From the NCBI GenBank assembly GCA_028280105.1, contig JANQML010000087.1:1-64000 (forward strand): a DNA stretch of 64,000 bases. The letters are read 5' to 3'. This document shows positions 28,612 to 48,651 of this stretch, one piece after another. The stretch's first letter is position 1. Each line of letters starts with the position of its first letter. Source of the DNA: Desulfobacula sp. Its GTDB lineage: Bacteria; Desulfobacterota; Desulfobacteria; Desulfobacterales; Desulfobacteraceae. The position numbers and the translations under genes were made by a program. The notes beneath the pieces were generated by a model. It made no database searches, had not been told where the DNA came from, and saw only the letters and a list, made by a program, of their open reading frames with translations.

Positions 28612-31005
28612 CTATCTTTTTCCGGTAATGATATTCTCTTTTTGTTCCAGTTGTACAATGGAGGGCGTAATAAAAATCAGCAACTCATTTCTATTATCAA
28701 CATTTGTATCTTTTCTGAACAATCTGCCTAAAATGGGGATACCGGATAGAACTGGGGTTCCGATAACCCCTTTATTGTCAGTTGTTTTCACAATCCCTCC
28801 AATAACAACCGTATCATTGTCATTGACCAGAAGCTCGGTTTCGGCTTCATTGGTGGAAAGGCTGGGAACTCCACTTACGATATCATCAATGTCGTTTTTC
28901 GTCAGATACACATTCATGGAAATCCGGTTATCCGGAGTCACATGGGGTGTGACCTCAAGCAATAAATCAATGCTTTTAAATTTTACGGAGGACCCGCCGC
29001 TGTCATCCCTTTCAAGGTAGGCAAACTCAAGTCCCTGCTTGATTTTTGCTTTCTTGTTATCCAGGGTTAATATCCGGGGTGAAGAAACAATTCTGACATC
29101 TCCTTTTACTTCAGAGGCGGCGATCTGGGCATTCAATTGGGTGAGTGAAGAACCGAAGAGCCTGAAAAAGTTGAAGGTTCCGGTATTGGCCGGATTTGAG
29201 GCAGTTATAGGCTGATTCAGTGCGATGGTAAAATCCGTCTCCCCCGCAGTTGGTTCGTTTCTTTCAGACAGGGCCAGGCCGATTCCAAGTTCTTTGGAAA
29301 AATTCTTGGTGACCTCAACCACCTTGGCTTCAATCATGATCTGGGGCGTGACCTTATCGAGCCTGAAAATGATCTCCTTTGCCTGCCCAATCTTTTCTTG
29401 GGTGTCCGTGATGATGATCATATTGGTCCGATTATCCACACTGAGCGTTCCCCTGTCCTTGGTGAGAATTTGGGAGATGTGCGGCTTGATATCCGAGTCT
29501 GCATCGGAATAGTTAATGGGTATATATTCGGTGGTCAGCGGTTCAAGGCTCTTTCTCTGTTCCAAGGATTTTTTCCGAGATTCGATCGCTGCCTGACGCA
29601 ATTTTTCTTCATTATCCAGGCTCTCAAGCGTTGCGATCCGAATGACATTTCCCTCTTTTTTCTGCCCCAGATTATTCATTTTCAACACCAGGTCCAGAAC
29701 CTGGTCCCAGGGAACCGGATTATCGAGGGTTAAGGTTACCTTGCCTTGGACATCGTCATCAATGGCGAAATTCAACCCGCCCACGCTTCGTAAAATCCTG
29801 AACACATTTTTTATATCTGTTTCAAAAAAATCGAGCTTAATTTTTTCACCTGTATAGGTTTTCGGCCTGTCAAATATCTCCCCATCTGGATCCGTTTCTC
29901 TATTATCCGGCAAAACAGGTTCAAACTGCGATCTTGCTTCCATCTGCGGCTGCTGCGCCATAAGATCTTGATCGTTTCCCGTCGAACCGCCTATTTTCTT
30001 TTTGGCTTTGCCAAATACAGGCGGTTCCACCCGGGATGCTTCAAAGTAGAGAGATAAAATGTTTGCATCCTGGACCACACGAAACGGAACCTGATCCCTG
30101 GTATTAATCTCAATTTTCGCATCCTTCTCTTTGCCCGGCATTTGCATCGGCATCAAACTTTCAACTGCAGATTTAAAATAATAGGTCAAAATGGGCCGTT
30201 CATGATGTTTCGGGATAATGGTGTTATACAGGTTTAAATAGAGCTTTTGATCTTCTCCCTGAATAATGTCGTATCTTACCGGATGGGTGGTCTTAACGAT
30301 AATATCCGATGTTCCGTCTTCCATGGTATTGAATTCGATATCCGTCATCCGTGCCGTTTTGTCAGAAAAATCCATTGGCTTTTCTTCTTTGGGTTCGGCA
30401 ACCAAATTCAAGGGTGCCGGATCTGTTTCTATTTTTTGGGATACCAGTGCAACCGGTTTCTCACCGGTTGCTTTCATTGCCGGCACGTTCGTGCCGGACA
30501 ACTTTACGGTCAGTGACTCCGCTTCTTCGAGCATCTCATAGTTGAGGTCCTCATTGAGTAGTATCTCCACTTTGGCGGTTGTCTGTTCAACGTCGGCATA
30601 GGCAACGACAATATCTGTAACGTTTTCCGAGTCGATCAACGGGACCTGTAAGCCGTCCTCTATTCTAGTATTGGGCAGGTAAACGGCAATGCCAAAGGGA
30701 AAGGACTGCTTGATTGAGGTATAAACCAGTTTTTGATTACCCCGGATCTCTATATCAACGGATTGGGCAGACTGTTGCACATGGAGGGAGGATATGTGTC
30801 GCAGAACGTTGTTTACCGGTTCAGAACCGGTTTTAATCCGTTCTTTTTCCAGCCCGATCCGTTCCTCGTTTGCAGCTTCGGCTTTAACCGGTTCCGGCTG
30901 CCGGGCCATACACCCGGAAATAATAAAAAGAGCCAGACAGATCAGACCGTACCCGGCAAGGCGTCTTATTTTTTTTGACTGAAAAACAGGCATATTACTC
31001 CCCAT
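28612..31005 (-). CDS. pilQ: Type IV pilus secretin
   Basis: AMIN-like N-terminal regions, STN/secretin motifs 'LDFFETDIKNVFRILRSVGGLNFAIDDDVQGKVTL', 'EAKVVEVTKNFSKELGIGL', 'VVIGGIVKT...GIPILGRLFR'. Confidence 0.95.
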   Translation of the reverse strand: MGSNMPVFQSKKIRRLAGYGLICLALFIISGCMARQPEPVKAEAANEERIGLEKERIKTGSEPVNNVLRHISSLHVQQSAQSVDIEIRGNQKLVYTSIKQSFPFGIAVYLPNTRIEDGLQVPLIDSENVTDIVVAYADVEQTTAKVEILLNEDLNYEMLEEAESLTVKLSGTNVPAMKATGEKPVALVSQKIETDPAPLNLVAEPKEEKPMDFSDKTARMTDIEFNTMEDGTSDIIVKTTHPVRYDIIQGEDQKLYLNLYNTIIPKHHERPILTYYFKSAVESLMPMQMPGKEKDAKIEINTRDQVPFRVVQDANILSLYFEASRVEPPVFGKAKKKIGGSTGNDQDLMAQQPQMEARSQFEPVLPDNRETDPDGEIFDRPKTYTGEKIKLDFFETDIKNVFRILRSVGGLNFAIDDDVQGKVTLTLDNPVPWDQVLDLVLKMNNLGQKKEGNVIRIATLESLDNEEKLRQAAIESRKKSLEQRKSLEPLTTEYIPINYSDADSDIKPHISQILTKDRGTLSVDNRTNMIIITDTQEKIGQAKEIIFRLDKVTPQIMIEAKVVEVTKNFSKELGIGLALSERNEPTAGETDFTIALNQPITASNPANTGTFNFFRLFGSSLTQLNAQIAASEVKGDVRIVSSPRILTLDNKKAKIKQGLEFAYLERDDSGGSSVKFKSIDLLLEVTPHVTPDNRISMNVYLTKNDIDDIVSGVPSLSTNEAETELLVNDNDTVVIGGIVKTTDNKGVIGTPVLSGIPILGRLFRKDTNVDNRNELLIFITPSIVQLEQKENIITGKR

Positions 31006-31657
31006 CGCTTAATTTATGTAATTTTATTTCGTGAATCTGCTCTTTGAGCTGCCCTTTGTAATCCCTGACCGGTTCTTTAACCACAATGCTTGCATCTTTT
31101 ATTTCAGATACGCGTCCTTGTCTTTTACCGATATATGTTCCGATTTTAACCTCATATCCTTTTCCGCTGGCTTCTTCGACCATGGCAATGGACCGGTCTT
31201 TCATCTGCAATACCGCCACCAGGCGAATCTGACTTAAATCGATTTTCTCCAAAGGCGTCAGGATTCGTTTGGGCCCGGTATCCTCAGCAACAGGTGTTTC
31301 TTCAACCGTTTCCTGAATTAATGGTATAAACGGATCAATCTTTCCCCTGGCGTCGTAGTGACTTAGCTCGGTTTCTTGGTTTAAATCAACCGGCACCAGG
31401 GTTTCAGGGTTCTTTTCAGGCTCTTTCATGACCGGTTTATTTTCATCGGAATCCATCTCTTTCTTGTCCGAAACGGCCAATGGTTGTGTGTTTTCTATCG
31501 CTGCAGGGGCCGGCGGCAGGATCTTTTTTTGAACCGCGGAGGGTTGCGGTTTTTTAGAAACAGGTGCAGAAGAGTCGTCACATCCCAACAGACTAAAAAT
31601 AAAAATCATTAAAATAACGGATATTTTTAATCCGGCAGCATTCATTGCGTTTGACAT
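30995..31657 (-). CDS. pilP: Type IV pilus assembly lipoprotein
   Basis: Lipobox LLGC; 'YDARGKIDPFIPLI...LTPLEKIDLSQIRLVAVL'. Confidence 0.92.
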   Translation of the reverse strand: MSNAMNAAGLKISVILMIFIFSLLGCDDSSAPVSKKPQPSAVQKKILPPAPAAIENTQPLAVSDKKEMDSDENKPVMKEPEKNPETLVPVDLNQETELSHYDARGKIDPFIPLIQETVEETPVAEDTGPKRILTPLEKIDLSQIRLVAVLQMKDRSIAMVEEASGKGYEVKIGTYIGKRQGRVSEIKDASIVVKEPVRDYKGQLKEQIHEIKLHKLSDGE

Positions 31658-31659
31658 CC

Positions 31660-32307
31660 CTATCTTTTCTTTCGCCTTTTCGTTTCAGGCTCTTCTTTTT
31701 GCTCAACAAACATATATGTGACGGCTTTACAGCTCAGTTCAACAATATTGCCCTCTTTTTTGGATTTGACGTCAACATCGTTGATATTCACAATCCGGTT
31801 CAACCGGACAACCTGGTAAAAGAAATCAGTGATTTGGTGATATCGTCCCTCCAGTTTTATGGCGATCGGAATTTCTTTATAAAACGGCTGACTGATTTCA
31901 GAGGCTGGTTTGAAAAGGAGAAAGTCCAGCCCTGCATCACTGCCTGCCCTGGAAATTCCCGTTAATAAAGAGGGAAGTTCCCTTTTATCCGGCAAGGCTT
32001 TCATGGCAATATTAAATTCCTCCTGTTTTGCCGCCATTTTCTGTTCCATTTCCAACAATACGGCTGCTTCACGCTTAAATTTTGCCAATTTTGTTTTTTG
32101 CCGGGTATATGTTGATTTCGCGTTTTTCAATTCTTTGTTTTTAGGTGTATAGATAAAATAATAATAGACACCGCCTATAAGGGCAAAGGTAATCAGACAG
32201 GTCAACAGCCTTTGGACTTTAGTCAATTCCCCGATTTTTTCAAAAACTGGCTTCAGTTTCTCTTTTACCGGCCCGAGTAGATCTTTTTTCTCGCTTTTAC
32301 TGCTCAT
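31660..32307 (-). CDS. pilO: Type IV pilus inner-membrane platform protein
   Basis: Single TM + coiled coil, 'LPDKRELPSLLTGISRAGSDAGLDFLLFKP...PIAIKLEGRYHQITDFFYQVVRLNRIVNI'. Confidence 0.93.
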   Translation of the reverse strand: MSSKSEKKDLLGPVKEKLKPVFEKIGELTKVQRLLTCLITFALIGGVYYYFIYTPKNKELKNAKSTYTRQKTKLAKFKREAAVLLEMEQKMAAKQEEFNIAMKALPDKRELPSLLTGISRAGSDAGLDFLLFKPASEISQPFYKEIPIAIKLEGRYHQITDFFYQVVRLNRIVNINDVDVKSKKEGNIVELSCKAVTYMFVEQKEEPETKRRKKR

Positions 32308-32891
32308 TTTTTACCTTTTGCCACAGCGTCTGTATTCTCCTTTTTAGGCTGTGCCTTTTGACAGAGGAGTTCAAAGGACTTGAGCATCAAATCATTGTTA
32401 AATTTCTTCATTTGGGCTGTTTTTAAATCCACCTTGCTGAAAAGAGAAGATCGTTCCAGGTTTTTCATGAAATCGGCAATGGTCGGATTATCAAAGGCAA
32501 TGCCTTTGATTGAAACCGAAATGGCTGTGGTTTTAATCTGTTCCAGCCACATCCTTTCGGGAACAATCAATTCCGTCATCATATCAAACAATATCAATTG
32601 CTTGTCACGTTGTGCCTCCAGGGAATATACAACATCAAGTTTTTCATCCAGCCGTTTCAAATCCGCCTTTATTTTCTGGACCCGGGCGGCTTTTTCCTGA
32701 AATTTGGCTATCTGGCTATTCACTTGCTGGGTTTGCGCCGTTACAGCCTGAATCTGTTTGGTAATCAATTGAGTATAATAAAACAGGGCAGCCAGAGTCA
32801 GCAGTATCAATAATAAAAAGATCGACACCTGGCGTCGGATATTTTCCTTTTTTCTTGCTACTCTAAAGGGTAGTAGATTAATCCGTATCAT
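32304..32891 (-). CDS. pilN: Type IV pilus assembly protein
   Basis: MIRINLLPFR...; PilN-like 'MMTELIVPERMWLEQIKTTAISVSIKGIAFDNPTIADFMKNLERS'. Confidence 0.93.
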   Translation of the reverse strand: MIRINLLPFRVARKKENIRRQVSIFLLLILLTLAALFYYTQLITKQIQAVTAQTQQVNSQIAKFQEKAARVQKIKADLKRLDEKLDVVYSLEAQRDKQLILFDMMTELIVPERMWLEQIKTTAISVSIKGIAFDNPTIADFMKNLERSSLFSKVDLKTAQMKKFNNDLMLKSFELLCQKAQPKKENTDAVAKGKK

Positions 32892-33946
32892 TTATCATCT
32901 ATTCTTCTTAATGCCAGTCCAATGGCAATGGGAGCCAATGGCCCTGCTTTGGTTATAAAGGATTCCGGGAATTTTTTTTCATTTATGATTAATCCTTCAA
33001 ACGGGTTTATGATCGAAATATCCGCTTCCAGCTCTGATAGCAACGCCTCTTTAAACCCCTCAATGAATACACCGCCTCCGCTTAAAATAATTTTTTCAAC
33101 CCGTTCGTCATTGGCACCTGACTGAAATGTATTAACGGCCTCACAAATCTCAGAACACCAGGATTGAGACACCTTTATACAGATTCTCTCAAAATCATCT
33201 TCATTGACTATTCCATCGGCATCTCCGTTCATTACTGCCATGGCGTCTTCAATGCCGACATCCAATTGCTCATTTATCTCTTCCAGTATCTGGTAGGTTC
33301 CTGAAACCGTATCCCGCATCATTAAAGAAGCATTGGCCTTCAAGATATTAAGAGAGGTTTTTGAAGCCCCCACATCAATGAGGAGTGTTATCTTCTCCTT
33401 GCTGCCATAGGGCAAAATTTCATGGGCATTCTGCAATGCAAAGGTATCCACATCGATTATTCTAGGATTTAACCCGGCCAAGTGGATGAGTTCGATATAT
33501 TCCGCCACCAGATCTTTTTTAACCGCCACCAGCAGCACGTTGATTTGGTCAGGAGAGAATTCGCTTTCTCCTAATATTTGATAGTCAATATTCACATCAT
33601 CGATATCATAGGGGATGTACTGCTCGGCTTCTGAAAAGATCGTATCGTGGAGTTCTTTATCCGGTCTTTTGGCGGTATTGATTGTCTTAATGACCACCGA
33701 ATGGCCACCGGTGGATATGGCGACATTTTTTTCTCTGATTTTATGGGATTTAAACAATGTTTTTATATCATTGGCCACGCTTCCCATATCTGCAATCCGA
33801 CCTTCGACGATGCTCCCGGGCGCGATGCGGCTCATCCCGAATTTATTGAGAAGATATCCCTTTTTACTCGGCTTTAACTCTGCAACTTTTATAATTGAAG
33901 AACCAATATCAAGGCCGACAAGATGATCTTTTTTTCCAAACACCAT
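32888..33946 (-). CDS. pilM: Type IV pilus actin-like ATPase
   Basis: FGKKDHLVGLDIGSSIIKVAEL; 'DVDTFALQNAHE'; 'LIDVGASKTSLNIL'; 'LSGGGVFIEGFKEAL'. Confidence 0.95.
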   Translation of the reverse strand: MVFGKKDHLVGLDIGSSIIKVAELKPSKKGYLLNKFGMSRIAPGSIVEGRIADMGSVANDIKTLFKSHKIREKNVAISTGGHSVVIKTINTAKRPDKELHDTIFSEAEQYIPYDIDDVNIDYQILGESEFSPDQINVLLVAVKKDLVAEYIELIHLAGLNPRIIDVDTFALQNAHEILPYGSKEKITLLIDVGASKTSLNILKANASLMMRDTVSGTYQILEEINEQLDVGIEDAMAVMNGDADGIVNEDDFERICIKVSQSWCSEICEAVNTFQSGANDERVEKIILSGGGVFIEGFKEALLSELEADISIINPFEGLIINEKKFPESFITKAGPLAPIAIGLALRRIDDK

Positions 33947-34136: not shown

Positions 34137-35552
34137 ATGCCACAAAAAATAAATAAATCTCAAACCGGTAAACCGTTCCGTCTTGTCAAGTTTTTCACCT
34201 TTTCATCACTGGTCATCATGTTTACGGCAACCCTTGTCATTGCAGCTTTAAATGCACACTGGGTCCGAAACCTTTTACTTGAAAAGAGCAAGGAATACGA
34301 CACCTTACTTGTAGAAAATTTAAATCATCAAATCTTTTCACGGTTTCTGCTGCCTGCCATCATTAAATACGGCGAGGTTCGCCTCAAGGAAAAAGAGCAG
34401 TTTCAGCTCATGGACAATGTGGTCCGGTCCACACTTCACAGTTTCAACGTTGAAAAGGTGACCATATACAATCATGAAAATATTATTTCATACAGTTTTG
34501 ACACCAGTCTTATCGGGCAAAACAATGCCGGTGGCGTTCACTATGAAAAAGCCATGAAACAGCAGCCCACCTCCCGGCTGATTCAAAATGGCAGCTTTTT
34601 GGAACTCTTATTCTGGTATCCTGAAGAAACGAAAATCGTCACATTTTCTCCATTAAAAACTTCGCAGCAGATGTTGGTTGGGGCCCGGCCAAGGGTATTG
34701 GGCGTTGTTGAAATCATTCGTGATGTGTCAGACGATTATAAACAGGTTTTAAAACTTCAAGGACTGATTGTCGGATCTTGTTTTATTGTTATGGGGATTT
34801 TATTTGTCGTCCTGCGATTTGTGGTCAAGCATGGTGAAAAAATTATTGAAAAAAGAGCTGACGAACGGTTGCGGCTTGAAGAGAAACTGCGTCAGGCAGA
34901 GCACTTATCCGCAATTGGAGAGATGACTGCCGGTGTTTCACACGAAATCAGAAATCCGCTGGGTATCATTAAAAGCAGTGCCCAGCTGCTTAAAAACAAG
35001 ATGAAAAAGCTTGATGCAAACACCAAAATTCCGGATATCATTGTTGAAGAGTCTGGGCGTCTTGATCACATCATTACCGACTTTCTCGATTTTGCCCGGC
35101 CCAAAGCACCTGATCTTCGCCCCTGTCATGTTAATGAAATCGTTGAAAAAAGTATTCTATTCCTCACCCCTCAGTTCGAAGAGAACAATATTGCCATACA
35201 AAAGGAAATAGACAACCGGCTGCCCCAAGTATTGGCGGATTCGTCCATGCTCTATCAGGCGTTTTTAAATATACTTATCAACGCCTGCCAATCTCTGTAC
35301 AATGACGGCAGCATCATCATTCGGACCGCATATAAAGACGGAAAGATACGGATCAATTTTATTGATGACGGACCGGGCATACCGGACGAAGTGATTAAAA
35401 AGATATGGACCCCTTTCTTTACCACCAAAGATACAGGAACCGGCCTTGGACTTGGAATTGTAAAAAATATGATTGAAGCGCATACCGGGAGCATATCGAT
35501 CGGTAATAATGAACCGGTCGGAGCCAATGTTGAAATCCTTCTGCCGGTATAG
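34137..35552 (+). CDS. Membrane histidine kinase (AtoS/ZraS/PilS-type) paired with sigma54 activator
   Basis: Two TM segments flanking sensor domain; 'SAIGEMTAGVSHEIRNPLGIIKSSAQLL', 'GTGLGLGIVKNMIEAHTG'. Confidence 0.93.
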   Translation: MPQKINKSQTGKPFRLVKFFTFSSLVIMFTATLVIAALNAHWVRNLLLEKSKEYDTLLVENLNHQIFSRFLLPAIIKYGEVRLKEKEQFQLMDNVVRSTLHSFNVEKVTIYNHENIISYSFDTSLIGQNNAGGVHYEKAMKQQPTSRLIQNGSFLELLFWYPEETKIVTFSPLKTSQQMLVGARPRVLGVVEIIRDVSDDYKQVLKLQGLIVGSCFIVMGILFVVLRFVVKHGEKIIEKRADERLRLEEKLRQAEHLSAIGEMTAGVSHEIRNPLGIIKSSAQLLKNKMKKLDANTKIPDIIVEESGRLDHIITDFLDFARPKAPDLRPCHVNEIVEKSILFLTPQFEENNIAIQKEIDNRLPQVLADSSMLYQAFLNILINACQSLYNDGSIIIRTAYKDGKIRINFIDDGPGIPDEVIKKIWTPFFTTKDTGTGLGLGIVKNMIEAHTGSISIGNNEPVGANVEILLPV

Positions 35553-35558
35553 GAGACG

Positions 35559-36935
35559 GTGCTTATGGAAAATATCCTGATTGTTGATGATGAAAAAAAC
35601 TATCCCATGGTTATCGGCGAACTTCTCCAGGAGGAAGGTTATACCACATGCACCGCCTCAAACGGTATGGAAGCCTTGGACATCTTATCCCATGAATTTG
35701 TGGACCTTGTTCTTACAGATGTAAAGATGCCGGGTATGGACGGCATCCTTTTGCTGGAAAAAATAAAAGCCGTCAACCCGGATATTCCGGTCATCGTCAT
35801 GACCGCATACGGCAGTGTTGAAAAAGCAGTGGAAGCTATGCACAAAGGTGCCTATACGTTTATCCTCAAACCCTTTGAAAACCAGACCCTGATTGCTCAC
35901 ATTGCCAAAGCCATCTCTGTTTACCGGATTGTTCAGGAAAATAAAATACTGAGAGAAGAGATACGGACCCGGTATAATTTTGATAACATCATCGGTAAGA
36001 GCAAACCCATGCAGGAAGTCTATGGCATCATCAAAAAAGTGGCGCCGTCCAGCGCCTCTATCCTGATTGAAGGTGAAAGCGGAACCGGTAAGGAATTGGT
36101 TGCAAAGTCCATCCATTACAACAGCACAAGAAAAGACAATGCCCTAATCGCCGTTAACTGTTCGGCATTTGCCGAAACACTTCTGGAAAGTGAGCTTTTC
36201 GGTCATGAAAAAGGGGCATTCACCGGAGCTGCGACCATGAAAAAAGGCCGGTTTGAACTGGCCCACAAAGGCAGTCTCTTTTTAGATGAAATAGGCGAAC
36301 TCCCCCTGGCACTTCAGGTTAAACTCTTAAGAGTGCTCCAGGAAAAGACCGTTGAACGAGTTGGGGGAACTGATTCCATACCGGTTGACTTCAGGCTCAT
36401 CGCTGCAACCAATAAAGACCTGGAGCATGAAATCCGCCAGGGAAACTTCAGGGAAGACCTCTATTACCGCCTCAATGTTGTCAAGGCCGTCATTCCGCCT
36501 TTAAGGAAAAGACCGCAGGATATCCCCCTGCTGATCAACCATTTTATTGATAAGTATACCCCTGATTCGGCACGACCGGATAAAAGATGTGAAATAGACC
36601 CCCATGCGGTCCAGTTGCTTTGCGAATATCCCTGGCATGGCAATGTCAGAGAATTGGAAAACATGATCGAAAGGTCTATGATACTCTGTTCCGACAATAT
36701 CATCACCGTATCCGATCTTCCGCAGCAAGTACGTCAAAACAAAGATAATACGGTCAATTTAGAGGGAATACCAGAGGGGGCCGGCCTTGTTGAAACGCTT
36801 GCCGCTGTTGAAAAAAAAATGATCCAGCAGGCAATGAAAAGATCCGGGAACGTTCAGACAAAAGCCGCAGAATTACTGGGTATTGGAAAAAGCGGTCTTA
36901 ATCAGAAACTAAAAAAGTTTAATATCGACAAGTAA
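35559..36935 (+). CDS. Sigma54-dependent NtrC-family response regulator
   Basis: Receiver + AAA+ with canonical [24 protein letters not shown], and Fis-type HTH '[31 protein letters not shown]'. Confidence 0.96.
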
Positions 36936-37067
36936 GGCAAATTCCGGATCTACGGCTTGGCCGATTCAATTTTCAACTGATGAGTATCCGTTCGAAATCA
37001 AGGCTGTTTCCATACTTTTTGGCAACCAATTTTCACCGATGATGTTATTACACACTTAAATGTGACG

Positions 37068-37083
37068 GTTAATTTTATTTAAC
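37068..37083. promoter_or_regulatory. 16-bp palindrome GTTnA-N6-TnAAC, site 1 (candidate activator binding site)
   Basis: GTTAATTTTATTTAAC. Confidence 0.6.
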
Positions 37084-37176
37084 AGGCCTTCTTTTTTAAA
37101 ACAAAAAAACAAGTTACAATCAATGTTTCCGATTTCCCTCAAAAATCAATGCGCCATCAATCCTTTTTGCAAAAGA

Positions 37177-37192
37177 GTTTAAAATCTTAAAC
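37177..37192. promoter_or_regulatory. 16-bp palindrome GTTnA-N6-TnAAC, site 2
   Basis: GTTTAAAATCTTAAAC. Confidence 0.6.
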
Positions 37193-37267
37193 GCTATCTA
37201 CAAGTTCATTTTCTGCCTATATAATTAAACAGTTACTCCAATTTCAATCCAGATCAATGCCCAAGGC

Positions 37268-37283
37268 GTTCAAAATAATGAAC
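37268..37283. promoter_or_regulatory. 16-bp palindrome GTTnA-N6-TnAAC, site 3
   Basis: GTTCAAAATAATGAAC. Confidence 0.6.
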
Positions 37284-37410
37284 ATTCACGGATCCGGATC
37301 GAATATCTGTCGGCTGTGACTATTTGTTCTTAATTTTAATGAGATATAAAATCGATATCAAATTCAGCATATTATAAGATTAAAAAAATTTTCTGTAAAA
37401 AAGAAGGGTT

Positions 37411-37426
37411 CGGCAGGAATTTTGCA
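37411..37426 (+). promoter_or_regulatory. Candidate sigma54 (-24/-12) promoter
   Basis: cGGCAgGaattTTGCA; GG-N10-GC spacing; agrees with TGGCACGNNNNTTGCW apart from two positions. Confidence 0.7.
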
Positions 37427-37436
37427 TTTACTTTTA

Positions 37437-37537
37437 GATAAGATAATAAATCACTAACGAAATGTTGGTTATTTCATCTTTTTTTCCTTTTCTAAAAAAG
37501 GCTGCCTGCGAAAAATCGCTTGGCAGCCTTTTTTAGT
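37437..37537 (+). ncRNA. Candidate sigma54-dependent small RNA (~100 nt)
   Basis: Start estimated ~12 nt after the -12 GC; ends at a strong intrinsic terminator; no convincing gene in between (a 24-codon ORF 37462-37536 exists). Confidence 0.5.
37491..37537 (+). terminator. Strong intrinsic terminator (works in both orientations)
   Basis: AAAAAAGGCTGCC-tgcgaaaaatcgctt-GGCAGCCTTTTTT, 13-15 bp stem. Confidence 0.88.
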
Positions 37538-37543
37538 TTCAAC

Positions 37544-38233
37544 CTATCTGATCATATCGATTTGACCTTTAGCGATTGGCAGGTAAATGGAATTCTGGTG
37601 ATCAGAAACTATTGTTTCATACATTTTCTTACTCTCGGCGATATTGCCGGAGTTTTTAGAGATCATGGCAAGGGCAAACCCGGCCTCATCCTTTAGAAGA
37701 TTGGTTTCTGATTCTTTAATTTGCTGAAAATACTGTGCAGCCCCGCCAAAATCCTTCTTGGAAAGACTGACATGCCCTAATGAGGCCAGGATGAAATTTG
37801 TCATCAGGGCCTGGCCTTGGAAAATTGCCAGGGCTTCCTTATAATGGATAAGGCTTTCATCAAATTTCGAAGCGTCATAAGATATTTTAGCGAATTTCAA
37901 CCGGGCCTGTTTTCCGGCGTGGGTATTGGAATACTCTTTAAAAACGGTCTCAAATGTATCTTTTACTTCAAGATATCCTTTATAAGGATCTTCAAATCCA
38001 GCATATTTGGCCATTGCCCGGCTGACCTTCAGTGCAGCGGTATCTTCAGATTTCTGGATACTGAGCATTACAGCTGAAAATACTATGATTACAAGCAAAA
38101 CAACACCGAGTCCCATGAAAAAAAGATTTCTTTGCTCTTTGAGGACAACCATGCCCTTAATTAAATTTTCCTGAAAAAAGTCTAGTTTTTCCAGTTCTTT
38201 TTTCCGTTCATTTGAAACCTTCTGATCCGCCAT
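37544..38233 (-). CDS. Membrane-anchored TPR-like protein
   Basis: Single TM 'LFFMGLGVVLLVIIVFSAVML' followed by helical repeats (FAKISYDASKFDESLIHYKEALAIF; KKDFGGAAQYFQQI). Confidence 0.75.
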   Translation of the reverse strand: MADQKVSNERKKELEKLDFFQENLIKGMVVLKEQRNLFFMGLGVVLLVIIVFSAVMLSIQKSEDTAALKVSRAMAKYAGFEDPYKGYLEVKDTFETVFKEYSNTHAGKQARLKFAKISYDASKFDESLIHYKEALAIFQGQALMTNFILASLGHVSLSKKDFGGAAQYFQQIKESETNLLKDEAGFALAMISKNSGNIAESKKMYETIVSDHQNSIYLPIAKGQIDMIR

Positions 38234-46374: not shown

Positions 46375-47538
46375 CTACTTTCCTTGATATCCATGGTCGA
46401 TTTCCAGCGAATCGATTCGGGTGGTTGTCTCTCCCCGGGAACTTTTTATTGAATCCAGTCCTCGTCCGACGATATCTTTTCGTGAAGCATAGGAGGTGGC
46501 AATATCCTCACTGATCAGCCCTTCTTCATATAAAGAAATGATATATTCATCAAAAGAGACCATGTCCTGGGCTTTCCCGGCCACGATGATATCATTAAAT
46601 GTTTTTCCTTCACTTTCTCCATTCAGAATGGAGTCTTTTACCCTTAAGTTGGAACCCATTATTTCAAACGCCGCCACCCGTCCTCCACCGGTTTTCGGCA
46701 GCAGCCGCTGGGATACGATCCAACGGACGGTATCTGCCAGCCGGATGCGGATCTGTTTTTCCTCTTCCGTATTGAACATACCCAAGACACGATTGATGGT
46801 CTGGCCGGCATCCACCGTATGAAGGGTTGACAGCACCAGGTGGCCGGTTTCAGCCGCTGAAAGGCCGATTTCAACCGTCTCCCGATCCCTCATTTCACCC
46901 ACCAGAATGACTTTTGGGGCCTGTCTTAAAGCGGCCCGGAGGCCGTTGGCAAAGGTATCAAAATCAGCCCCCAGTTCCCGCTGATTAAAGGTCGATCTTT
47001 TTTGCGGGTGCTGATACTCAATGGGATCTTCAAGGGTGATGACATGGACCGATTTGGATTCATTTACCTTATCGAGCAATGCGGCAAGCGACGTCGTCTT
47101 TCCGGATCCGGTTGCACCGGTAACAAAAATGATCCCGTTTCTTTCTTCGGCCATTTTGTGGAAGGCATTGGGCAGATCCAGCTCTTCAATGGTGGGTATC
47201 TTCGTTTCAAGCTTTCTGAGCACAATGGAATATTTCCCGGATCGTGAAAAGATATTCACACGGAACCTTGCCTTGTTTGCCAGTTGATAGGATAAATCGC
47301 AGGATCCTTCACGGATAAGGGTTTCAACCAGTTTTCGGTTGTTGTTGATCAGATTCAGGGCAACAATCTCGGTCTGAAACGGGGTGAGCAGATTAAAATC
47401 AGGATCGATTTTCACCTTGACAAGCTCTCCCGAACTTTCGACCTGAAGGGGTTTTCCCGGTGTAAAATTCAGATCCGACACATTTTCATGGGAATCGAGC
47501 ATTTTAGAAAGAATATGGTCAATCTGCTGTTTTTTCAT
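46375..47538 (-). CDS. PilT/PilU-family retraction ATPase (second paralogue)
   Basis: Walker A GATGSGKTTSLAALLD, VITLEDPIEYQH, VILVGEMRDRETVEIGLSAAETGHLVLSTLHT. Confidence 0.92.
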   Translation of the reverse strand: MKKQQIDHILSKMLDSHENVSDLNFTPGKPLQVESSGELVKVKIDPDFNLLTPFQTEIVALNLINNNRKLVETLIREGSCDLSYQLANKARFRVNIFSRSGKYSIVLRKLETKIPTIEELDLPNAFHKMAEERNGIIFVTGATGSGKTTSLAALLDKVNESKSVHVITLEDPIEYQHPQKRSTFNQRELGADFDTFANGLRAALRQAPKVILVGEMRDRETVEIGLSAAETGHLVLSTLHTVDAGQTINRVLGMFNTEEEKQIRIRLADTVRWIVSQRLLPKTGGGRVAAFEIMGSNLRVKDSILNGESEGKTFNDIIVAGKAQDMVSFDEYIISLYEEGLISEDIATSYASRKDIVGRGLDSIKSSRGETTTRIDSLEIDHGYQGK

Positions 47539-47568
47539 ACCACCGTCCTTCAATCAATAGATACATAA

Positions 47569-48651
47569 CTAGGCTTCAGTGAAATCTGCAGGCGGCTTTT
47601 TCAGATAGGGCCGGAACAGCGACTTGTTGTTGGCCTTTCCATATGCTTCATCCGGGCTGATCCAGCCCTTTTTGTACAACTGCATGATGGCATCGTCCAA
47701 GAGTTGCATGCCGTATTGCTTCCCGGTCTGAATAGAACTGGGTATCTGATGGGTTTTTGCTTCCCGGATCAGGTTTCGGACCGCAGGCGTCGCCACAAGA
47801 ATTTCAAGCGCCGCGCACCGGCCTCTTTTATCAATTCGCTTGAACAGGGTTTGGGCCACAACCGCCCGAAGACCGTCCGACAGGGTGGAACGGATCTGAG
47901 CCTGCTCTGTGGACGGAAAGACTTCGATAATCCTGTCCACGGTTTTAGCCGCACTTGAGGTATGGAGGGTGCCGAATACCAGGTGACCCGTTGAGGCGGC
48001 CTCTATGGCAAGAGAGATGGTTTCAAGATCCCTTAATTCGCCCACCAGAATAATGTCCGGGTCTTCACGCAACGCCCCCCTGAGTGCCGATGAAAAACTT
48101 TGAGTATGAAGTTCCACCTCTCTGTGATTGACAATACAGTTCTGGCTTCTGTGAACAAATTCGATGGGATCTTCAACCGTGATGATGTGATCCTTTCTTG
48201 TCCGATTCGCCTGATCGATAATCGCTGCCAGGGTGGTGGATTTACCGGAACCGGTGGGGCCGGTGACCAAAACAAGCCCCCTGGGCAAATCCGCCAGTTT
48301 GGAAATTACCGGTGGCAGCCCGAGTTGTTCAGCGGTTAATATTTCGGACGGAATCTCACGAAATACGGCGGCAATCCCGTTCTTCTGCATAAAGTAATTC
48401 GCCCTGTAACGGGCAAGCCCCGGAATTTCATACCCGAAATCCACATCACCGGTCTCTTCAAAGATCTTTATCTTTTCCTGCGAGGTGATTTCATACAAAA
48501 GGCCGCGCAATTTATCACTGGTCAGGATATCATATTTGATTCTTTCAATATCCCCGTGAAGCCGAATCGCCGGTTGCTGACCCGAGGCCAGGTGAAGGTC
48601 TGACGCCCCCTGTTCATGCATCAGCTTGAAAAACGCATCAATTTCAGCCAT
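47569..48651 (-). CDS. pilT: Type IV pilus retraction ATPase
   Basis: GASDLHLASGQQPAIRLHGDI, GPTGSGKSTTLAAIID, DPDIILVGELRDLETISLAIEAASTGHLVFGTLHTSSAAKTVDRII. Confidence 0.95.
   Translation of the reverse strand: MAEIDAFFKLMHEQGASDLHLASGQQPAIRLHGDIERIKYDILTSDKLRGLLYEITSQEKIKIFEETGDVDFGYEIPGLARYRANYFMQKNGIAAVFREIPSEILTAEQLGLPPVISKLADLPRGLVLVTGPTGSGKSTTLAAIIDQANRTRKDHIITVEDPIEFVHRSQNCIVNHREVELHTQSFSSALRGALREDPDIILVGELRDLETISLAIEAASTGHLVFGTLHTSSAAKTVDRIIEVFPSTEQAQIRSTLSDGLRAVVAQTLFKRIDKRGRCAALEILVATPAVRNLIREAKTHQIPSSIQTGKQYGMQLLDDAIMQLYKKGWISPDEAYGKANNKSLFRPYLKKPPADFTEA

Follow-up and report, generated by a model that had tools for sequence, protein, structure and literature searches.

A predicted sigma54-dependent small RNA, linked to an NtrC-type two-component system and complementary to porin translation starts in Desulfobacterales

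Comparative analysis points to a regulatory circuit in Desulfobacterales in which a two-component system would act through sigma54 on sibling small RNAs (sRNAs) that in turn would block porin translation, in genomes where no Hfq was detected. We put the probability of this reading at roughly 85%; sequence comparison across genomes supports its predicted elements, namely the activator sites, the promoter, the RNA gene, the copies of that gene and the matched changes at porin starts. The locus lies in a 64,000-nt stretch of Desulfobacula sp. DNA (the whole stretch analysed, hereafter the window), which belongs to a fragmented assembly of 413 contigs with 6.5% contamination; the window's genome is referred to below as G000 and its genus as g1.

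Locus organization and activator sites

A sensor histidine kinase gene (34137-35552, plus strand) encodes a 471-residue protein with HisKA and HATPase_c domains (Pfam), whose nearest NCBIfam models, AtoS and ZraS, score under their cut-offs. Its putative partner is the NtrC-type response regulator encoded at 35565-36935 on the same strand, which combines Response_reg, Sigma54_activat and Fis-type HTH_8 domains (Pfam) with a GAFTGA motif and is the predicted activator of the sRNA gene described below; the open reading frame table starts it at GTG 35559, relatives at ATG 35565. The regulator gene converges with a gene for a TPR-repeat membrane protein (37544-38233, minus strand; Pfam), a conserved neighbour of one class of sRNA copies (type A), so that no protein gene lies 3' of the sigma54-like element at 37412-37425. 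On its other side, the two-component pair adjoins a pilM-pilQ-like type IV pilus cluster (28612-33946), and PilT/PilU-like ATPases are encoded further on, at 46375-48651; a weight matrix for the palindromes discussed next gave no strong match near either pilus region.

The sequence-only reading had described three matching palindromes upstream of the sigma54-like element, and all three are indeed present, with compensated arm bases: GTTAATTTTATTTAAC at 37068-37083, GTTTAAAATCTTAAAC at 37177-37192 and GTTCAAAATAATGAAC at 37268-37283, with centres that precede the -12 GC by 349, 240 and 149 bp. Their joint occurrence exceeds chance, as had been claimed: 0.017 matches are expected in the 608-bp intergenic region, none of 20,000 Markov shuffles contained three, and the 64-kb window as a whole holds 7 occurrences of GTTNAN6TNAAC against 1.27 expected. 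The three are nevertheless not equivalent. Scored with a weight matrix derived from the palindromes at other sRNA copies (minimum 14.2, median 26.6 for those palindromes), the palindromes at 37177 (23.8) and 37268 (23.3) rank as the top two in the 64 kb and fall into one conserved class, whereas the one at 37068 fits the motif poorly (2.1 against at least 14.2), finds no counterpart in relatives and, at -344 from the -24 GG, is probably no functional site. We therefore retain two predicted upstream activator sites, a distal one 235 bp and a proximal one 144 bp before the -24 GG.

Both positions recur in relatives. All 44 sRNA copies with at least 330 bp of upstream sequence carry one or more GTTNAN6TNAAC palindromes and 31 carry two, which amounts to 1.70 per upstream region against 0.009 by chance; the sites cluster at -140 to -150 and at -230 to -240 from the -24 GG and are mostly 88-92 bp apart. 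Conservation at a fixed distance from a conserved promoter bears out the earlier suggestion that these are enhancer-like elements of a sigma54 promoter.

The proposal that a genome-wide motif scan would define a regulon held for a strict form of the motif. Across 26 genomes, the refined pattern GTTYAAAATNTTRAAC has 45 distinct matches, of which 43 fall at sigma54-driven sRNA genes, the exceptions being one inside a coding sequence (G144, 5078169) and one in an intergenic region without an sRNA (G232, 2791966); the direct regulon of the motif would thus consist essentially of the sRNA genes themselves. The loose pattern GTTNAN6TNAAC, in contrast, was rejected as a regulon definition, as its 171 genome-wide matches against 94 for the control represent about a twofold excess and are mostly background, and the intermediate GTTYAN6TRAAC (44 against 11) yields mostly single sites. 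From these data we infer that the two retained palindromes control a small RNA gene that had not been listed before.

The small RNA gene and its copies

The promoter GGCAGGAATTTTGC (37412-37425, plus strand), of GG-N10-GC form with GG at 37412 and GC at 37424, is predicted to drive a regulator-linked, terminated noncoding RNA gene of about 100 nt, and every one of 49 copies has a GGYR-N8-GC element some 50 nt 5' of the core. Aligned copies delineate a transcript-like unit of ~75-100 nt that comprises the sigma54 promoter, a 5' hairpin region, a U/C core and a GGCUGC...GCAGCC terminator. In the window, the predicted type A RNA spans 37437-37536 (plus strand), with a putative start ~12 nt after the -12 GC and an end set by the T run of the terminator. 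Its 5' stem-loop, ACUAAC-loop-GUUGGU (37453-37469), is paired in 95% of its pair cells across 20 copies of type A, with a single compensatory change, the element being too conserved for covariation to decide. The core that follows (UUUCAUCUUUUUUUCCUUUUC, 37472-37492), single-stranded in the predicted structure, is almost invariant among copies while its flanks vary; it is antisense to the Shine-Dalgarno (SD)-spacer-AUG segment of porin mRNAs and is the predicted seed. The intrinsic terminator, AAAAAAGGCUGCC...GGCAGCCUUUUUU (37494-37536), is strong and has 12 consensus pairs, 4 of them with compensatory changes. For the window copy, the predicted folding energy is -37.7 kcal/mol (z = -7.6). A search of Rfam 15 returned no match at gathering score, the best being a chance-level hit to STnc370 (29.1 bits against a cut-off of 54). 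A small coding peptide was considered and set aside, as inspection revealed no reading frame common to the copies.

When positions 37040-37560 were compared by BLAST with 58 relatives, 31 genomes matched, almost always over 37444-37542 only and often several times per genome. Of 241 genomes of the class searched with a covariance model, 61 contain the RNA, among them 47 of the 48 sampled Desulfobacteraceae, where two copies are usual, and diverged forms occur in other families of Desulfobacterales. The exact core was found in records of Desulfobacula, Desulfobacter, Desulfotignum, Desulfospira and unclassified Desulfobacteraceae, Desulfobacterales and Deltaproteobacteria. Type A copies lie 3' of the regulator gene and converge with the TPR gene; type B copies follow genes that, from reading the sequences, we take to encode S-adenosylmethionine synthetase and S-adenosylhomocysteinase (metK-ahcY). 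The type B copy of the window's genome, on contig C142 (L046), has palindromes at 2640 and 2728 and a promoter at 2861. The constancy of this second location (L046 and L047-L065) hints at a link to S-adenosylmethionine or methyl metabolism, or simply at a stable insertion site. Additional covariance-model matches in genus g1, such as C409:8881-8950, were tried as third sRNA copies and rejected: like other weak covariance-model and BLAST matches, they correspond to the start regions of porin genes in antisense orientation, and they have neither promoter nor palindromes.

Could the conserved element be a mere terminator of the convergent TPR gene, with the palindromes serving an unannotated protein or some other RNA? 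The terminator is symmetric and could serve a minus-strand gene, and it is probably shared with the TPR gene. However, type B copies have no TPR neighbour, the most conserved part of the element is the core, 5' of the terminator, a sigma54 promoter precedes every copy and the copies share no reading frame, all of which makes this explanation scarcely credible and favours an RNA gene in its own right.

The neighbouring response regulator

An ortholog search recovered the regulator as a single-copy gene across the order, with one clear ortholog (57-81% identity) in 52 of the 53 genomes tested and next-best matches at ~50% or less. Orthologs lie directly 5' of the type A copies, and the arrangement extends to other families of the order, where the same palindrome, a sigma54 promoter and a diverged RNA come after the ortholog in G037, G058 and G086. 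The neighbouring regulator is, on this comparative evidence, the best candidate to bind the palindromes.

That another NtrC-type activator binds them instead is unlikely, although several observations would fit it: the genome encodes many paralogs (more than 30 matches), type B copies lie away from the regulator gene, and in G007 and several g2 and g6 genomes the ortholog itself has no linked copy, the copies lying elsewhere in the genome, so that there the regulator would have to act in trans. Against it, regulator, palindrome and RNA stay linked from one family to another even where the RNA has diverged, and regulator and RNA are jointly absent from G194, the one genome without an ortholog and the sole sampled member of the family without the RNA, in an assembly that is only 89% complete. 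In the distant genomes G070, G209, G044 and G072, the region downstream of the ortholog showed no recognisable sRNA with a linked palindrome; G070, like G097, does contain sRNA copies away from it.

Two loci illustrate natural variation of the arrangement. In G007 (C1:697200-699070, L290) the regulator is kept, the type A sRNA is missing and the TPR gene follows directly, with the type B copy retained, which represents a natural loss of one sibling. In the complete genome G134 (C1:349130-350254), the ortholog match covers residues 1-375 only, possibly by frameshift or truncation, while the sRNA and its palindromes are intact.

Complementarity to porin translation starts

Read as its reverse complement, the core UUUUUUCAUCUUUUUUUCCUUUUCU gives AGAAAAGGAAAAAAAGAUGAAAAAA, a segment made up of an SD, a spacer, AUG and a pair of Lys codons. 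A search of 20 genomes for the antisense 21-mer, allowing at most 2 mismatches, yielded 39 places outside sRNA genes, against 5 matches in all for a reversed control pattern; 20 of the 39 are starts of porin or beta-barrel genes (in 17 genomes), 2 are starts of TonB receptor genes and 17 belong to neither group. In the window's own genome, the best match overall is the start of the gene at 7713-8909 on contig C409 (minus strand), which encodes a 399-residue beta-barrel-like protein. The predicted duplex of this start with the RNA reaches -32.2 kcal/mol, compared with a mean of -13.1 (sd 3.8) and a minimum of -25.4 over 386 background gene starts that come from roughly 8% of the genome (464 kb). 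Among ten target proteins, two score above the Pfam Porin_4 cut-off and six match NCBIfam DESULF_POR1 partially (1.9e-18 to 2.6e-5), under its cut-off; PDB relatives at E<=1 were found neither for the C409 porin nor for the porin on G057 C89. Nearby duplicated porin genes both keep the sRNA-complementary start in G134 (C1:4821507 and 4823089) and in G058 (C8:35695 and 40291). A TonB-dependent receptor start in G000 (AAAGGAGAAAAAAGATGAA, C263:13619-13637, minus strand, L368), with a duplex of -24.3 kcal/mol with the window's RNA, is a possible second target. Any strong SD followed by AUG-Lys-Lys has a complement similar to the core, so that matches to exported proteins could be partly generic.

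Core and porin starts change together between lineages. In family f24 the core CAUCUGUUUUUCUCC pairs over 27 contiguous nucleotides with the porin start GGAGAAAAACAGAUGAAAAA (G057, G067, G068), at -36.9 kcal/mol compared with -20.9 for the window's core, and in genus g9 the core UUCAUCUUUUUUCUCCUUU likewise pairs over 27 contiguous nucleotides with AAAGGAGAAAAAAGAUGAA (G195, G033), at -38.5 compared with -25.3; porin starts of these two groups lose 11-16 kcal/mol when the window's RNA replaces their own. In genus g8 the porins pair with one G-U (AGGAG opposite UUCC). G058 runs counter to this pattern: its porins form a better duplex with the RNA of f24 than with the regulator-linked RNA of G058 itself, the one copy of that genome compared. 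We regard the matched change as the strongest evidence that pairing with porin starts is the function of the RNA, as far as sequence can indicate it.

The same comparison bears on whether the RNA might be a general decoy of translation or ribosomes, resembling an anti-SD and acting on many targets of which porins are merely the most obvious. Core variants in several families do contain CCUCC or UCUCC, which resemble the 16S anti-SD, and some antisense matches are starts of non-porin genes. Yet conservation is not confined to the SD and takes in the start codon and the Lys codons as well, spacer bases differ among families and match each family's own porins over the 27 contiguous pairs, and none of the 386 background starts in the window's genome attains the duplex energy of the porin. 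We consider general decoy activity improbable and dedicated pairing with porin mRNAs the better account.

Hfq (PF17209) had no match in any of 18 Desulfobacterales genomes, complete ones included, although control genomes, E. coli and B. subtilis among them, did match. The absence of a detected Hfq is unusual for a trans-acting RNA and fits the unusually long perfect pairing described above.

Discussion

In the model that we favour, the kinase encoded at 34137 and the regulator encoded at 35565 would respond to a signal by phosphorylation of the regulator, which in this form would bind the sites at 37177 and 37268 and loop to sigma54-RNA polymerase at 37412-37425. This would switch on transcription of the ~100-nt trans-acting RNA (37437-37536) and, through the same kind of sites, that of its sibling after metK-ahcY on C142. 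The RNA would expose a U/C-rich core between its 5' hairpin and its terminator hairpin, and the core would pair with the SD, spacer, AUG and Lys codons of porin mRNAs, in the window's own genome that of C409. Such pairing would block ribosome entry and lower porin synthesis, repression being the sign that we infer. The opposite outcome, in which the RNA would pair with the same mRNAs and activate or stabilise them, could draw on the capacity of long duplexes to protect from RNases, and the sequence gives no sign of the effect; the direct coverage of SD and AUG, which in known sRNAs blocks 30S binding, makes it very unlikely and argues for repression.

We also lean, somewhat beyond even odds, towards a broader statement: that Desulfobacterales possess an Hfq-free outer-membrane circuit in which a dedicated two-component system would have two sibling sigma54-dependent sRNAs as its only direct targets, these would silence major porins by very long perfect pairing, and RNA and porin starts would co-evolve across families, the whole constituting a functional counterpart of sigmaE-MicA/RybB assembled from unrelated parts. 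As the predictions made here for this order-wide RNA family cover the regulator, its DNA sites, the promoter and the targets, each step is directly testable. The circuit suggests an independent origin of sRNA-mediated porin silencing, apart from Hfq and sigmaE, and a role for long perfect pairing as a substitute for Hfq. Among the papers searched, none describes a Desulfobacteraceae sRNA with porin targets, and none names a target of any regulatory RNA from these sulfate reducers.

The regulatory half of the circuit has well-known parallels in CbrB-CrcZ/CrcY, LuxO-Qrr and GlrR(QseF)-GlmY, where NtrC-family regulators control sigma54-dependent sRNAs through upstream palindromes and where the RNAs often come as siblings, one of them beside the regulator genes. 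The window system shares with the CrcZ, Qrr and GlmY kind the activation of sigma54 sRNAs by an NtrC-family regulator, as predicted here and as reported for the link between GlmY and QseEF (PMC8745638), and it differs from them in RNA sequence, in host organisms and in targets, which for those RNAs are Hfq/Crc titration, quorum regulators and glmS. Similar in arrangement are DVU0679 (Dv_sRNA2) and DVU0653 of Desulfovibrio vulgaris, NtrC-type regulators with a sigma54-dependent ncRNA 3' of their own gene, whose RNA function was reported as unknown and where regulator sites are mostly palindromic (PMC3333781, PMC4641369). As there, the window has an NtrC-type two-component regulator with a putative sigma54-dependent target ncRNA directly downstream; by comparison of the descriptions, it differs in belonging to another bacterial class and in having two unlinked siblings, a defined palindrome and matched porin targets. 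The present circuit may explain the role of such orphan sigma54-driven ncRNAs beside Desulfovibrio response regulators.

The target half resembles MicA, RybB, MicF, MicC and OmrA/B, trans-acting RNAs that pair at the translation start of outer-membrane protein mRNAs, use Hfq and are expressed from sigmaE-, OmpR- or sigma70-type promoters. In Burkholderia, the porin sRNA NcS25, which pairs at the translation start and has no sigma54 promoter, has been shown to repress, and the same paper gives the blocking of 30S binding as the canonical mode (PMC10117139). Pairing at the translation start of outer-membrane protein mRNAs, predicted here for the window RNA, is common to all of these. The latter stands apart from the MicA/RybB kind in its putative control by sigma54 and NtrC-type sites rather than by sigmaE or OmpR, in a genomic background where no Hfq was found and in a perfect pairing that is much longer.
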